A stretch of DNA of 33,457 nt, taken from IMG/VR virus record IMGVR_UViG_3300048121_001263, positions 1 to 33,457 of that record; one strand, given 5' to 3'. How positions within the stretch are numbered: the stretch's first letter is position 1; each line of letters opens with the position of its first letter. The position numbers were made by a program, and so were the translations under genes. Below are positions 2,348 to 33,457 of the stretch, one piece after another. Below the pieces are notes generated by a model that saw only the letters and a list, made by a program, of their open reading frames with translations, was not told the DNA's origin and did not search any database. This DNA comes from a virus.

Positions 2348-2532
2348 CTTGTTGTGCTTCCCTCTGCTATTAAATCTATCCAATACTGTTTAAGTTTTTT
2401 GTTTTTCTCTAGCTTACGGATAGCTGTCCTGTAGACGTGCATAGCGCCCTGTCTTGATAGCCCTATCTCATCGGCAATCTTTTGCCATGTAACATCGCCA
2501 TCATGTACTACACTCCTAGGTTTATTGCTCAC
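2344..2532 (-). CDS. Small HTH DNA-binding protein
   Basis: This is a 62-residue protein. Residues about 14-40 (TWQKIADEIGLSRQGAMHVY) form a clear helix-turn-helix resembling sigma-70 region 4 or small phage regulators. A Lys-rich helix follows. The start is GTG at 2532, which overlaps the NinB stop as GTGA and has AAGGAT upstream. A longer reading from GTG 2595 would overlap NinB by 67 bases. The stop overlaps the NinG start as ATGA, so NinB, this gene and NinG are translationally coupled. It may be a regulator or a DNA-binding accessory factor for recombination; the target is unknown. Confidence 0.65.
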   Translation of the reverse strand: MSNKPRSVVHDGDVTWQKIADEIGLSRQGAMHVYRTAIRKLEKNKKLKQYWIDLIAEGSTTR

Positions 2533-2951
2533 TTTAGTTGATCCTTTAGTTGTTGAGGAAATGGGACGTATACTTCCTTGTTCTCTGAGAGCCACCTAAC
2601 TAGCACCTCAGCGGCGTTAGACAGCTCCTGTGGGGTTAGCTTGCCTGTAGAGCTCTTGTCGTACATGGCCTTTATAATAGGCTTGTAGAGCGTCTCCTTA
2701 ACCAGCACCTCAGTGAACGGTATCTCTAGCTTGTCACTGAACGGATGCCTTACCCAGTACCCTGCGTCATTCAGCTCTTTAGCTATCTGTCTAAACCACA
2801 AGTGCATAGCGTTGTTTTGTCTGTCACTCCTTGTTGTGTCCTTGATTGTATATAGGATTTTCTTGCCGTCATCAAATTGTGTGGTGATGAAAGCGATAAA
2901 AAAGTTCATCTTGTCTTTGGTGTCGACAAGCCAGCGGTGCGATGAATCCAT
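2529..2951 (-). CDS. ninB: NinB-like recombination protein
   Basis: The protein has 140 residues. The stretch RSDRQNNAMHLWFRQIAKEL, followed by the C-terminal pattern of a helical domain, resembles the NinB (Orf) family. Lambda Orf binds single-stranded DNA and stands in for RecFOR-type mediators during phage recombination. The start ATG at 2951 has a near-perfect GGAGGA site. The tandem 9-bp GGGCA array ends only 14 bases upstream of the start. NinB and NinG together recall the lambda nin region. The family assignment is from recognised residues, not from a search. Confidence 0.7.
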   Translation of the reverse strand: MDSSHRWLVDTKDKMNFFIAFITTQFDDGKKILYTIKDTTRSDRQNNAMHLWFRQIAKELNDAGYWVRHPFSDKLEIPFTEVLVKETLYKPIIKAMYDKSSTGKLTPQELSNAAEVLVRWLSENKEVYVPFPQQLKDQLK

Positions 2952-2965
2952 AAGTCCTCCGATTT

Positions 2966-3029
2966 AGTTTGCCCAGTTTGCCCAGTTTGCCCGGTTTGCC
3001 CCTTATGCCCCAGAAAAAGGGGGCGGGTT
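2966..3029 (-). promoter_or_regulatory. Core + 9-bp repeat element, copy 1
   Basis: Read on the minus strand toward NinB, this is AACCCGCCCCCT (3029-3018), then 7 bases, then five contiguous 9-mers from 3010 down to 2966: GGGCATAAG, GGGCAAACC, and GGGCAAACT three times. The same core, the same 7-base gap and a near-identical first 9-mer recur at 11061-11106 ahead of the late unit. It ends 14 bases before the NinB ATG. The conserved architecture at two operon heads argues for a protein-binding or RNA-level control site; the function is unknown. Confidence 0.7.
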
Positions 3030-3063
3030 GTCTATTTCCCTGTGCAGGGGCCCCCTAAACCAC

Positions 3064-3099
3064 GGGCATTACGGGCATTGTGGGCATTCTGGGCATTAC
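3064..3099 (+). repeat. Inverted 9-bp array beside copy 1
   Basis: Four contiguous plus-strand 9-mers are present: GGGCATTAC, GGGCATTGT, GGGCATTCT, GGGCATTAC. They are in the opposite orientation to the array at 2966-3010. The last unit overlaps the stop codon of the ATPase gene. The two arrays flank about 53 bases containing GGGGCCCC (3047-3054). Complementary TGCCC and GGGCA blocks could form a cruciform, or an RNA hairpin in a leftward transcript. A GGGCATTCTGGGCATT stretch is shared with 11089-11104. Confidence 0.75.
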
Positions 3100-4262
3100 A
3101 TTGGCACCCAGCGATAGTATTTCTTCCCGTGCGTGCCTTTGCGCTCTAGTTTTAAGTTGTTTCCTTTGAGCAAATCAATGCAGTTGCGCAGTGTTTTCTT
3201 GGTGCATCCGTTCGGATTTACATCATCATCGCGTAGCAGGTCAAACAATTCTGTTTGGGCGTAGAGCCTGCCCTCTGTCATAACGCTACTTAACAGAACA
3301 TACTCGTCTTCGTATCGACTGATTGCCTTTCCAATGTTGATCTGAGATTTCTGCTTGTCTTTGAGTTCGCTGATATCATCGCCGCTCATAAACTGAACGG
3401 AGTCTACTGACTCTTCGTAGCCCACTGTCGCGCTAGTTTGCTTGTACTTAAAGCCACCCTCAAAACTAATCTGACTGCGATCTTTTTCATTAATTACTAA
3501 CAGCTCTTGATAGAAAGAAAACTTATCGTTGAGCGGATCAAGGCCAAACATATTGTCAACGTCAGCCTTAAGGTCGCCTACGCCTTCATAGATCAATCGA
3601 CCATCCATGCTTCGGTGTTTGTTGCAGTGACCCAGCAGGATTACGGTGCCGCCTGCCGCGGCAAACTCACGGAAGACGTGAAGCACTTCGCGCATGTCAC
3701 CCTTGTTCAGGACCGGCGCAAACTTCTTTAAGGTATCGCAGATAACAATCTTGCCGTTAGCTTCGCCCTCTTCTCTGATCGCGTTGAGCAGGTGAAGGGC
3801 GTCGGTTGTTGTACGAAGCGATGGATCTGGTGAGTTAGCCAGGGTAACCATTGTTATACCGTGGCGGTTGCCCATCTTGGCCTTCTGAAGCACCCCTTTG
3901 GCTCCGTCATCTTCGTTAAAATAGATTACGTCAGAGCCTTTTATCAGGTTATTCCGAATACTCTGGAATAGATTGCCTAAAATCCATACGGTCTTACCGG
4001 CTCCTGAGGGGGCGTATACGAGCGTTACGGTTCCAGTAGTAATCATGCCGGGGATAACGTCTCGCTCTTGCGCTAGGCGCTCCTCAAGCTCTTCTATGCG
4101 GCTGTTAACTGCAACACCCATAAGCTTAGAGAGTGACGACGATCCATTCTGTTTTGTGTAGTACGGGTTCCCCGGAAAGGCTTCGTTGATGAGTTCTTCT
4201 TTGATTACAAAGGCGGGTTTTTGTCCTACTGACTCGCAGTAGTCTGCCCAGTCGTCTTGCAT
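3096..4262 (-). CDS. RecA-fold ATPase (RepA/DnaB-type, AAA_25-like)
   Basis: The protein has 388 residues. A Walker A motif lies at residues 84-91 (APSGAGKT) and a Walker B-like strand KIVICD at 171-176. A following strand ends in LLGHCNK (209-215), the sensor-like position of hexameric RepA helicases. The C-terminal 60 residues look like a winged helix (TELFDLLRDDD..TKKTLRNCIDLL) ending in a Lys/Tyr-rich tail. Together these suggest an ATP-driven DNA-handling protein, probably a replicative helicase or a RecA-like recombination ATPase. No primase or polymerase is encoded nearby. The start ATG at 4262 has AAGGGG upstream. It heads the leftward recombination group, and iteron-like arrays lie at its 3' end. 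Confidence 0.75.
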   Translation of the reverse strand: MQDDWADYCESVGQKPAFVIKEELINEAFPGNPYYTKQNGSSSLSKLMGVAVNSRIEELEERLAQERDVIPGMITTGTVTLVYAPSGAGKTVWILGNLFQSIRNNLIKGSDVIYFNEDDGAKGVLQKAKMGNRHGITMVTLANSPDPSLRTTTDALHLLNAIREEGEANGKIVICDTLKKFAPVLNKGDMREVLHVFREFAAAGGTVILLGHCNKHRSMDGRLIYEGVGDLKADVDNMFGLDPLNDKFSFYQELLVINEKDRSQISFEGGFKYKQTSATVGYEESVDSVQFMSGDDISELKDKQKSQINIGKAISRYEDEYVLLSSVMTEGRLYAQTELFDLLRDDDVNPNGCTKKTLRNCIDLLKGNNLKLERKGTHGKKYYRWVPM

Positions 4263-4400: not shown

Positions 4401-5009
4401 ATGTCAGGCACTGTAAAGATTCATGGCAAGGAATATAAGACTGTAGCCTTGCGTGTTCAGGAGTTCAGAGAGAAACACTCGGACTTTGCTATTCAAACTG
4501 AGCTTGTTGAAGCTAACGACACCTTGGTTATTGTCAAGGCAACGATAGCCGCCGGAGGTCAGGTAATCTCTACTGGCTATGCGGAAGAGGTAAGGTCGGC
4601 CAGCAAGATCAATCGCACTTCAGCTCTTGAGAATGCAGAAACCAGCGCAGTAGGAAGGGCTTTAGCATTCTTCGGAATGGGCGGATCAGAGATAGCATCA
4701 GCTGACGAGGTGGCTAACGCGATCAGCCAGCAGAACAGCCAGCCTGCCATCGAAGAAATTAATAGACTCATTGCACACAATGAAACGTGGAGAAACAACT
4801 CCGCCTCTATTTACTTCATCAAAGAACACATCGAGCTAAAGTCGTGGGAGGCTGTAGCTGAGGCGTGGGCTGAGATTTCAAATGAAGACAAGGCGGCCTT
4901 ATGGCTGGCTCCTTCAAAGGGTGGGGCATTTACTACGGCTGAACGTGCCGCACTCAAATCCGATGAGTTCAACGCCGCAAGAAAAGTAATGGGAGAAGAC
5001 AATGGATAA
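4401..5009 (+). CDS. Single-strand annealing-like protein (Erf/Rad52-type)
   Basis: The protein has 202 residues. The N-terminal half contains strands (YKTVALRVQEFRE, LVIVKATI) and the signature SALENAETSAVGRALAFFG at about residues 74-92. This signature is typical of phage proteins grouped with Erf/Rad52-like annealing proteins that pair complementary single strands. The C-terminal part is a separate helical domain, probably for partner binding. The start ATG has GGAGAG eight bases upstream. It heads a rightward three-gene set with overlapping ends, divergent from the ATPase. A general ssDNA-binding role is the main alternative. Confidence 0.55.
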   Translation: MSGTVKIHGKEYKTVALRVQEFREKHSDFAIQTELVEANDTLVIVKATIAAGGQVISTGYAEEVRSASKINRTSALENAETSAVGRALAFFGMGGSEIASADEVANAISQQNSQPAIEEINRLIAHNETWRNNSASIYFIKEHIELKSWEAVAEAWAEISNEDKAALWLAPSKGGAFTTAERAALKSDEFNAARKVMGEDNG

Positions 5010-5644: not shown

Positions 5645-5833
5645 ATGAACGAACAAACTGAATACCTATACTACCGCGACCTGTTCCACATCTTCAAAGC
5701 CTATACTTCACCGAAGTTAATTAAGGTATTGAATGCTCAAGGCATTAAGTATTTCACCGATGCTAAAGGCAAGCCCTTTACTACAAGGGCCGCCATCGAG
5801 GATGCTTTATCTGAAGAGGATCAATCAACCTAG
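5645..5833 (+). CDS. DUF4224-like small protein
   Basis: The protein has 62 residues. The pattern TSPKLIKVLNAQGIKYFTDAKGKPFTTRAAIEDAL resembles the small winged-helix DUF4224 proteins of phages and prophages, often found near recombination genes. I chose the ATG at 5645, which has GGAG 6-7 bases upstream, over the ATG at 5633 that lies against the terminator. The stop codon shares CTAG with the stop of the convergent phosphoesterase gene. DNA binding is inferred from the fold family. Confidence 0.55.
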   Translation: MNEQTEYLYYRDLFHIFKAYTSPKLIKVLNAQGIKYFTDAKGKPFTTRAAIEDALSEEDQST

Positions 5834-6981
5834 GCTCTTGGTCTGATAGTGATACGACTTACTTCGCCATCAGTTGCGTCGTACGTGATGACCTTGGCTC
5901 CTCTCTGTGACATTAGCCCGAGACGAGTCGCGTATGAGTCGCGTGAGGCAAGTGTAGGGTGCTGCTCTGTAATAGCCCCAGCGTCTTCCAGTAGTCGCTC
6001 ATGATGGTAGTGACCAGAATGGATATACGCAATCTTCGAGCGCCCCCAGTCCTCTCGAAACCGTGGCTCGCTGGCAAACACCTTCGGCAAGCTACCCATC
6101 TTGGCTTTGTGCCCATGATGGAAACAAAGCATCGTTTCGCCGTGCCGGTATGCGTAGTATGGGAAGTCATTGTCGATAACCTCAAGGCGAGGCTCGTTTA
6201 CATACAGCTTGCGAATAAACTTGCGAAGCCAGATAGATCCAGCAATGTCGTGATTACCTTCAGCGCATACGAATACAACCTTCTCGTACTTCTTTAGCAT
6301 CATGCGGACAGCTTCATCCATAACGGTCATGGCTATGTCTACAATGCGGCTGTATCTCGAATCTCCTTCTAAAAGATTTTTACCAGACGGAGTGAGCTGC
6401 TCGAGTCCGTCCCAGTGCAAAAAATCACCGAGGTTACAAAGCATCCCGATTTTGCTTTTTGGCGTGCTGTCGACCATCTCTTTGATGCTAGACAAAAACA
6501 GATCTCTTGCCATGTTCGTGTCGTAATCCTCGCTAGTCTCCTGTCCCCAGCAGTAAGAACCGAGATGAAAATCCGTGATGACCAGCAAAGAAAGTAGATC
6601 GTCCTCTACAGCCTTTGGTTTTTTAACTGGCTTCCACGGTTTGATGCCCTCGCAAGCTACCTCGATGCGCTCGATCATCATTTGAAACTGACGTTCTTTG
6701 TCTGACTGGCTTTTCACCCATTGAGCAACAGGGTTTCCGTCCGAGTTGTAGTAGGTCGAGACGCCCCTCAGAACGAAGCCCTCAGGCACCGTATGAACCA
6801 TGTCGTGATCGGGCGAGTGACCTTGAATGGCGGCTTTGCGCTTTATGTTTTTTATGATGTCACGCGCGACCCACTTACTAACTCCAATTTTGTCGCCGAT
6901 CTTCTGATAGCCTAACCCTTCCTCATGCAGAGTAATAATTTGACGTTGACGCTCAGTTGTACAGTAATTAAGTAAACTCAT
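5830..6981 (-). CDS. Calcineurin-like metallophosphoesterase with N-terminal HTH
   Basis: The protein has 383 residues. Residues about 8-48 form a helix-turn-helix (TERQRQIITLHEEGLGYQKI..) of the sigma-region-4/LuxR type. The metallophosphoesterase core follows with all five metal motifs: DFH (137-139), GD (185-186), GNHD (242-245), HHGH (288-291) and GHYH (323-326). An intact active site predicts hydrolysis of a phosphodiester or phosphomonoester, and the HTH suggests action at DNA. The start ATG at 6981 with GGGGGAAG upstream is preferred to the longer reading from 7047. It is the last gene of the leftward accessory block. Confidence 0.85.
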   Translation of the reverse strand: MSLLNYCTTERQRQIITLHEEGLGYQKIGDKIGVSKWVARDIIKNIKRKAAIQGHSPDHDMVHTVPEGFVLRGVSTYYNSDGNPVAQWVKSQSDKERQFQMMIERIEVACEGIKPWKPVKKPKAVEDDLLSLLVITDFHLGSYCWGQETSEDYDTNMARDLFLSSIKEMVDSTPKSKIGMLCNLGDFLHWDGLEQLTPSGKNLLEGDSRYSRIVDIAMTVMDEAVRMMLKKYEKVVFVCAEGNHDIAGSIWLRKFIRKLYVNEPRLEVIDNDFPYYAYRHGETMLCFHHGHKAKMGSLPKVFASEPRFREDWGRSKIAYIHSGHYHHERLLEDAGAITEQHPTLASRDSYATRLGLMSQRGAKVITYDATDGEVSRITIRPRA

Positions 6982-7000
6982 ATCTTCCCCCAATGAAACC

Positions 7001-7207
7001 CTATGGGCGTATGCTCCGCATCGTGTTTGCTCTTGCAAGAACAGCAACGATTTGGGTTAGCTCTACGGGGTCAATTGGAATGCTCATTTGCGGCTGCTCC
7101 GTATTTGCCACCTTCACATAGTGAAGCTGAAGATAAGACAGCAGCGCCGCAAGAACATCCTCCTCTGTTCGGATTTTTATCAGTGCCTCTTCGGACTCTG
7201 TAGTCAT
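7001..7207 (-). CDS. Hypothetical protein
   Basis: This is a 68-residue, acidic protein of no recognised family. It is predicted mostly helical (EEDVLAALLSYLQLHY and DPVELTQIVAVLARAN). The start ATG at 7207 has a good GAGGAG site. It lies 19 bases upstream of the phosphoesterase gene and is probably cotranscribed with it. A 191-base gap separates it from the next gene upstream. Confidence 0.6.
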   Translation of the reverse strand: MTTESEEALIKIRTEEDVLAALLSYLQLHYVKVANTEQPQMSIPIDPVELTQIVAVLARANTMRSIRP

Positions 7208-11060: not shown

Positions 11061-11106
11061 AACCCGCCCCCTAATCTATGGGCATCAGGGGCATTCTGGG
11101 CATTCT
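11061..11106 (+). promoter_or_regulatory. Core + 9-bp repeat element, copy 2
   Basis: AACCCGCCCCCT (11061-11072) is followed by exactly 7 bases and then three contiguous 9-mers: GGGCATCAG, GGGCATTCT, GGGCATTCT. The core and gap equal those upstream of NinB (3029-3011, leftward), and the first 9-mer differs by one base. It lies 100 bases upstream of the first late gene. A shared regulator for the recombination and late units is the simplest reading. Confidence 0.7.
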
Positions 11107-11168
11107 GAAAAAAAAGAAGGTTCAGAGTATTGTTTAACCAAATAGATATATATAGGATAGGGAGGGTA

Positions 11169-32532: not shown

Positions 32533-33457
32533 ATGGCAAAGCCTTGGGAAGCGCCGTTAGCCGCAAAAAAAAGAACGCCTTTGGCTCGAGCTAAAAAGCC
32601 GTGGGAATCTGAGTTTAAGTCTTACTCAACTCAAGAGTACAGCGCAGCTCGGTCAGGTACTGTAGACTTTCTTGAGTCCGCCATAGGGGTAGGTGACGAG
32701 CTGGATGCGACTATTCGAGTTTTATCTGGCGAGGCTGATACCTATAACCAAGGTATACAGCAATCTCGTGCAGAGCTAGATGCCTTTGAAAGGGCAAACC
32801 CTGGGGCCTCTGGCTTGATTACAGCGGTAGGTCTTGGTGCCGGCTTGTTTGTTCCTGGCGCCAGTCTTGTAAAGATCGCGCAGACAGGAAGCAAGTTAGA
32901 TAGGGCGTTCAAAGTAGCCACGCTTGGTGCCGCCGAAGGTGCCGCGTATGGATACCTCAGCGGTAGGGATGAAGGTCGATTGGAGGGTGCCGCACTAGGT
33001 GCCGGCCTCGGTGCCGGTCTTGGCGCTGGAGCCTCCTTGCTAACCAAAAGCGCAGATGAGATTGCCGCCGCAACAAAGAAAGCAAAACGTCAGCGTGTAG
33101 GAAAAGAGGGTGGATTTATTGGCGGCGAAGAAGGCTTCGCTAATGTAGGCACAGCAGGAAAAGGCGGATCTGCTACTGATGCCAGCCTACAGAAAAGAAA
33201 CAACACCACCATTCTTGATGGCGATGGCGTTAAAGACAGCATGGGCAAAGCCTCAAGGACGATAGGCAATATACTCCTAGGAACTAAAGAGTGGGCGGCC
33301 AAAAACGTAGGGGCTAGAGCCGCTCGGCTCATTGAAGACTCTGAGATTATGGTTCGCCATGAACTTAATGAGATCGACAATATATATAACGACACTTTTG
33401 CTGGTGCCGCAAAGGTCTTTGATGAAAACCCAGCACTAAAGAAGATGCTACTTCAGA
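32533..33457 (+). CDS. Large internal virion/DNA-ejection protein, N-terminal part
   Basis: This is the 5' part of the 871-residue protein that continues at base 1 of the window. The start ATG has GGGGAG upstream. Residues about 45-60 (TVDFLESAIGVGDELDATIR) resemble the N-terminal parts of phage ejection proteins. A hydrophobic segment (LITAVGLGAGLFVPGASLV) comes near residues 96-114. A glycine zipper (GAALGAGLGAGLGAGASLL) lies near residues 154-172; both may enter membranes when the phage injects DNA. The joined gene is the last of the late unit. Confidence 0.75.
   Translation, partial: MAKPWEAPLAAKKRTPLARAKKPWESEFKSYSTQEYSAARSGTVDFLESAIGVGDELDATIRVLSGEADTYNQGIQQSRAELDAFERANPGASGLITAVGLGAGLFVPGASLVKIAQTGSKLDRAFKVATLGAAEGAAYGYLSGRDEGRLEGAALGAGLGAGLGAGASLLTKSADEIAAATKKAKRQRVGKEGGFIGGEEGFANVGTAGKGGSATDASLQKRNNTTILDGDGVKDSMGKASRTIGNILLGTKEWAAKNVGARAARLIEDSEIMVRHELNEIDNIYNDTFAGAAKVFDENPALKKMLLQ
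33224..33457. repeat. Terminal overlap, right copy
   Basis: This repeats bases 1-234 with substitutions at 33277, 33295 and 33330. Joining the ends keeps the long gene in frame, which supports circular closure at 33,223 bp. Confidence 0.9.

Follow-up and report, generated by a model that had tools for sequence, protein, structure and literature searches.

The short repeats beside the gene F0 in the window (the whole stretch of DNA analysed, 33,457 nucleotides of IMG/VR virus record IMGVR_UViG_3300048121_001263) are probably iterons bound by the F0 protein: two arms placed head to head between F0 and the NinB gene, A and B, would form a replication origin, and a third arm, C, at the late unit, would be a second F0 site. 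Among related phages, the iterons of the three arms have changed in concert, and this change is accompanied by a switch at residue 359 of F0, which is located in the predicted recognition helix of a C-terminal winged helix.

Repeat arms in the window and in related phages

The 12-bp core AACCCGCCCCCT is present at 3018-3029 on the minus strand and, base for base, at 11061-11072 on the plus strand. Each core is followed by 7 bases and then by contiguous 9-mers starting with GGGCA, five near NinB (3010 to 2966, -) and three at the late unit (11080-11106, +), exactly as the original prediction had described. When up to three mismatches were allowed, the combination of core, gap and GGGCA was matched twice in the window against 0.06 matches expected by chance, and two matches were found in none of 100 shuffles. 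A third copy, arm B, had been overlooked. It lies head-to-head with the NinB copy, arm A, and together they occupy the entire NinB-F0 intergenic space (Table 1). Arm A ends immediately before the NinB ribosome-binding site, and the F0 stop codon (TAA read on the minus strand) falls inside the last arm B iteron. The iterons are tandem direct repeats with a period of 9 bp in a non-coding stretch, with 3-6 copies per arm. The first description, a single oriented element heading each of two operons, does not hold, as the NinB copy is half of a head-to-head pair belonging to F0, and only some lineages have the late copy. Between arms A and B of the window, an AT-rich unwinding element is not obvious, which weighs against an origin there. 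The window itself begins and ends with a direct terminal repeat of 234 bp (1-234 and 33224-33457, 99% identical), so that the contig is terminally redundant or circular.

Table 1. Coordinates of the repeat arms and neighbouring features in the window.
Feature	Position	Strand	Description	Basis or remark
NinB/Orf-like recombination mediator	2529..2951	-	Next gene after arm A	Iteron type not tracked
Arm A	2966..3029	-	Core AACCCGCCCCCT 3018-3029, 7-nt spacer, five 9-bp iterons GGGCATAAG GGGCAAACC (GGGCAAACT)x3	Equivalent arm in relatives
Arm B	3050..3099	+	Core GCCCCCT 3050-3056, spacer AAACCAC, four iterons GGGCATTAC GGGCATTGT GGGCATTCT GGGCATTAC 3064-3099	
F0, 388 aa	3096..4262	-	AAA_25 (RepA/KaiC/RecA-like) ATPase and C-terminal winged helix	Proposed iteron-binding initiator
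F0 winged-helix codons (residues 318-388)	3099..3311	-		Predicted structure
Recognition-helix Arg359 codon of F0	3186-3188	-		Predicted structure and covariation
Late element C	11061..11106	+	Core AACCCGCCCCCT, spacer AATCTAT, three iterons GGGCATCAG GGGCATTCT GGGCATTCT	Single arm
Block TTGTTTAAC...TATATATAGGATAGGGAGGG	11130..11165	+	Between C and first late gene	Conserved
Second late-unit gene, 144 aa	11407..11841	+	Anchor for late regions	Small terminase by position only

The core followed at 7 bp by GGGCA 9-mers recurs in relatives. The exact pattern CCCCCT-N7-(GGGCA-N4)2-GGGCA was found in 66 stretches of IMG/VR, all records of one phage group whose common genes around these stretches, by gene-family comparison, include F0, NinB and NinG. 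Relatives of F0 are encoded on 139 IMG/VR stretches, and no homologue was found among 50,697 phage records. Both arms lie downstream of F0 at 96 of 98 distinct related F0 loci, arm A being too degenerate for the detector at the remaining two. The gene downstream of the pair differs among these relatives, being NinB, a small inserted gene, a methyltransferase-like gene in one branch, or others. Since the pair stays beside F0 while the downstream gene changes, the paired site is to be assigned to F0 rather than NinB. Nor is the element scattered over many unrelated positions: among 40 whole records, the core-gap-GGG pattern occurs 0, 1 or 2 times per record, and not once in the reversed control. 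It was expected to keep its positions in close relatives, which is the case for the paired site, near-universal beside F0, but the late copy is present only in some lineages.

Two features first described as fixed turned out to vary. The gap between core and iterons is 7 bases in GGGC-type phages but, by reading, often 6 in the type with another base at position 4 (non-C type). The core is identical at the NinB and late copies of the window, but its NinB-side C-tract is a G-tract in some relatives (GGGGGGT in place of CCCCCT in L076, L093, L133 and L182, with the T and the spacing retained). The two cores of the pair adjoin (GGGGGCCGCCCCC) in some branches, with tens of bases between them in others. 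Iterons are alike inside one arm, whereas arms A and B are unlike at bases 6-9 (AAACT vs ATTCT), an assignment reversed in L123, L234 and L242. A small gene lies between F0 and the arms in L183, L184, L194, L201, L204, L131 and L213, where the arms are shifted by up to about 550 bp and are intact. The genes adjoining the arms also vary in group II (L058 6172-7299 and L061 2023-2832 among the examples); by reading, one of these neighbours starts MKVLDLFSGIGG, as in cytosine methyltransferases, and another resembles a ParB-like and methyltransferase fusion. L125 (IMGVR_UViG_3300030329_000867), a relative by TerL (88%), carries a perfect GGGCAACAT array outside the iteron pattern.

A bacterial genome scan with the exact pattern returned three matches, none carrying window-related genes, and a phage-record search with a 56-bp consensus returned partial chance matches only. 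The matches lacking F0 in an iteron-only scan were mostly simple coding repeats, and no related genes were found on L074, which had looked promising.

The GCCC/GGGC content and inverted layout of the arms could allow them to pair in an RNA element, working as a hairpin, in antitermination or in translational control. This is very improbable: the arms differ at iteron bases 6-9 in most lineages and so do not appear to be selected to pair, and in some phages, where the A-side and B-side cores both have their G-tract on one strand, core pairing is abolished. Moreover, no conserved base pairing between the arms was seen by inspection, and Rfam gave no match for the element.

The F0 protein and its covariation with the iterons

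The gene directly adjoining the repeats encodes a candidate DNA-binding initiator, F0, with a predicted winged helix. The only Pfam domain found in F0 is AAA_25 (PF13481), with 42.6 bits against a cut-off of 27, and neither a primase nor an SF3 helicase domain was detected by Pfam or PHROGs. The last 80 residues are predicted to fold as helix, strand, helix, a further helix at 355-365 and a two-stranded wing, with a pLDDT of 88 when modelled alone. In the fold search this region is matched best by winged-helix proteins that bind DNA (Z 8.8, rmsd 2.0-2.7 over 71-73 residues); many winged-helix regulators tie, and no single initiator family stands out. The model of the ATPase domain is poor (pLDDT mostly below 60), and with this low-confidence model only KaiC-like matches were obtained among known folds, none at E<=0.001. 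Searches of solved structures by sequence yielded nothing with a profile and, with the single sequence, only pentatricopeptide-repeat matches that were spurious.

In plasmid centromeres, too, a winged-helix or ribbon-helix protein binds short tandem repeats, and the arms would fit a partition or centromere-like site instead of an origin. Such a site is scarcely credible here, as the partner is a RecA-like AAA_25 ATPase and not a ParA, ParM or TubZ NTPase.

Across 635 iterons, C at base 4 and A at base 5 each have a frequency of 83%; the invariant GGG results from the detection method, and the register of the group II iterons (GGGGCAAAA) was set by hand before types were counted. Some phages have G, T or A instead of C at base 4, on the two arms simultaneously, so that GGGCA becomes GGG(G/T/A)A. 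A degenerate non-C pattern was found in 17 stretches; no stretch matched a strict GGGGA-only pattern, as the variants occur in mixture. Where a contig holds both the pair and element C, the type of C agrees with that of the arms in ten of ten cases, corresponding to about three independent switches involving C. GGGC arms accompany GGGC late iterons in the window, G001, G010 and 3300021197_001060, and non-C arms accompany non-C late iterons in G002, G005, 3300010149_000303, 3300034375_005319, G006 and G007. In the closest comparison, L284 with L255, the late DNA is identical from the CACCCAG block through the spacer, and late iterons 2 and 3 are unlike only at base 4 (C to G). The proposal that one dedicated factor serves two separate operons is thus strongly supported, with base 4 changing in concert at both sites. 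In L486 (IMGVR_UViG_3300025705_000095, 9465-), whose late-unit proteins are 99.8-100% identical to those of the window (TerL 99.76%), the late iterons are non-C (GGGGATTAC GGGGAAACT GGGTATTCT) and F0 lies off the contig.

Residue 359 of F0 is Arg in all 79 GGGC-type proteins and Leu in all 13 non-C-type proteins. The positions that separate the two types fully are 333, 340 and 359, all within the winged helix; position 357 goes from T, M, S or Q to K in 11 of the 13 non-C proteins, and position 377 also follows the type. Mapped on the predicted structure, 357 and 359 belong to the recognition helix and 377 to the wing tip. As far as covariation of residue 359 with base 4 shows, the specificity of the putative initiator is matched to the iteron sequence. 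A clean association between iteron base 5 and F0 residues was not found.

On a tree of the ATPase part only (F0 residues 1-300), the iteron type changes nine times, at least six of them on well-supported branches, and residue 359 switches with the iteron type in six of six independent pairs (p=0.031). The winged-helix tree, built without residue 359, shows one type change, and the NinB tree shows six. These three results imply that winged helix and iterons move together, as one unit, across different ATPase backbones.

It could be argued that the iterons have a different reader, such as the HTH-phosphoesterase, a host regulator or a small protein of the phage, and that the F0 correlation comes from physical linkage. 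The C-terminus of F0 touches arm B, so both recombine as one block, and the single division of the winged-helix tree by type is in keeping with this; cassette exchange by recombination alone could be the source of the A/B correlation, and linkage alone could yield part of it, since the winged-helix codons touch arm B. However, mere linkage is a poor explanation, because the distant element C matches and because NinB, equally close on the opposite side, does not track the type. No position in NinB, NinG or F3 shows less than 10% overlap between iteron types, and the discriminating F0 residues map to the predicted recognition helix and wing. The factor is probably neither of the two proteins that had been put forward, the 62-residue HTH protein and the phosphoesterase HTH; the phosphoesterase does not track the iteron type, whereas F0 does. 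Discriminating positions were seen in the phosphoesterase at first, but its tree mixes the types and one G-type row was partial; GGGC-type and non-C-type phosphoesterases are sisters in that tree. Taken together, the other-factor explanation is improbable.

Regarding the neighbouring genes, F3 (4401-5009, +) looks by eye like single-strand annealing proteins (TSALENAETSAVGRALAFFG; PHROGs family unknown). The gene at 5830-7047 (-) encodes the metallophosphoesterase (PHROG 704 DNA repair exonuclease) with its N-terminal HTH, and in some relatives it adjoins the paired arms.

The late element and the proposed mechanism

Element C is found in the close relatives of the window and a few others; most other relatives lack it upstream of the 144-aa late gene. 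Part of the TTGTTTAAC...TATATATAGGATAGGGAGGG block downstream of C is retained in the alignment even where C is absent. This block is a possible late promoter; a sigma-70 consensus scan gave no match there. PHROGs gave no match for the 144-aa late gene product. The cumulative GC skew reaches its minimum at around 10-11 kb, near C and away from A/B, which counts against an origin at A/B, though gene orientation alone may be the cause.

The original prediction had left the factor as an activator, repressor, antiterminator or replication initiator, and the last is the likeliest of the four. F0 acting purely as a transcription regulator, with A and B as operators of its own operon and of NinB, C as a late operator and no origin, would agree with the location of C upstream of the conserved late block and with the end of arm A at the following gene's ribosome-binding site. 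Nevertheless, this is unlikely: arm B points back into the 3' end of F0, where no known gene has a promoter for it to serve, the pair accompanies F0 whichever gene comes next, and a consensus promoter scan at A/B found none. Furthermore, initiator helicases are usually built in this way, as an ATPase with an iteron-binding domain joined to it.

In the preferred reading, with the A/B pair as the phage replication origin, the 9-mers would be iterons read by the C-terminal winged helix of F0, the initiator and possibly the helicase itself. With their winged helices, F0 monomers would line up in register along each arm and so bring RecA-fold ATPase rings to the two flanks of the G/C-tract centre; a pair of rings could then be loaded and depart in opposite directions. 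The host replisome would then be recruited, as neither a polymerase nor a primase was seen in those window proteins that were scanned. Arm C would be a second F0 site, most likely coupling late transcription to F0 or to replication, which is favoured because C lies immediately upstream of the conserved TATATATAGGATAGGGAGGG block; by analogy with P4 crr, it may be an accessory replication site. A bolder version, in which F0 is a single switch that fires the head-to-head iteron origin and controls a late promoter at C through the same winged helix, is tentative and somewhat doubtful.

Comparison with known initiators and meaning for the phage group

The α protein of P4 is an ATPase/helicase with a C-terminal winged-helix origin-binding domain, and the same short repeats are present at the distant ori and crr; it also carries a primase and an SF3 helicase, and crr is essential. 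The F0 system resembles it in that a single protein, with an ATPase and a predicted C-terminal winged helix, would use the same repeats at two distant sites. It differs in that F0 lacks the primase and SF3 helicase by Pfam and PHROGs, and in that C, unlike crr, is not present in all relatives.

The SaPI Rep-ori system was reportedly described by Ubeda et al. in 2007, as cited in PMC7581432. According to PMC7581432, the short iterons read by the C-terminal domain of the SaPI Rep initiator helicase lie in an origin immediately downstream of the rep gene, and Rep is thought to bind as two hexamers. C-terminal iteron reading has been shown for SCCmec Cch2, which has been compared with MCM and D5 (PMC7581432). 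The likeness to F0 is close, with iterons directly downstream of the gene and, as anatomy and covariation suggest, specificity in the C-terminal domain. The statement that no described site has such an architecture was therefore too strong, since SaPI rep/ori follows the same general plan with a different initiator. However, Rep and Cch belong to other helicase families, whereas AAA_25, a RecA-fold ATPase, is the only Pfam domain of F0. The F0 arms also have a G/C-tract core, and some lineages carry a second, single arm at the late unit.

The nearest named group of AAA_25-type proteins includes RSF1010 RepA, a RecA-fold replicative helicase, according to PMC8965321, which describes AAA_25 proteins as without known function. 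This places F0 near RepA, but in RSF1010 oriV is opened by a separate protein, RepC (PMC8965321), whereas F0 would combine the ATPase and a DNA-reading domain in one chain. GP46 of Lactococcus phage F13 is, like F0, a phage RepA/AAA_25-related RecA-fold protein, and has 5'-3' DNA helicase activity; in contrast to F0, the passages of PMC8965321 consulted mention neither a winged helix that reads iterons nor a cognate repeat site for it. Finally, PLE RepA of Vibrio cholerae binds cognate iterons through an N-terminal DNA-binding domain, and iteron variants alter recognition by ICP1 Odn (PMC8263062, PMC7145576). PLE RepA is likewise an initiator with cognate iterons, but it belongs to the RepA_N family, with semi-palindromic iterons of ~30 bp and no RecA-fold ATPase. 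By analogy, the F0 system would operate on the plan of SaPI Rep/ori or P4 α/ori-crr, with a different ATPase.

The phage group, known here from sequence only, gains a specific candidate initiator-origin pair, and one class of AAA_25 proteins is assigned a probable role in sequence-specific DNA reading. Natural variation supplies a putative recognition code (residue 359 against base 4), and the matching switch at least 8 kb away comes close to a natural two-site specificity experiment. If the single-switch reading is true, the change from Arg359 to Leu, together with the matching base-4 changes, would rewire a whole regulon between close relatives.
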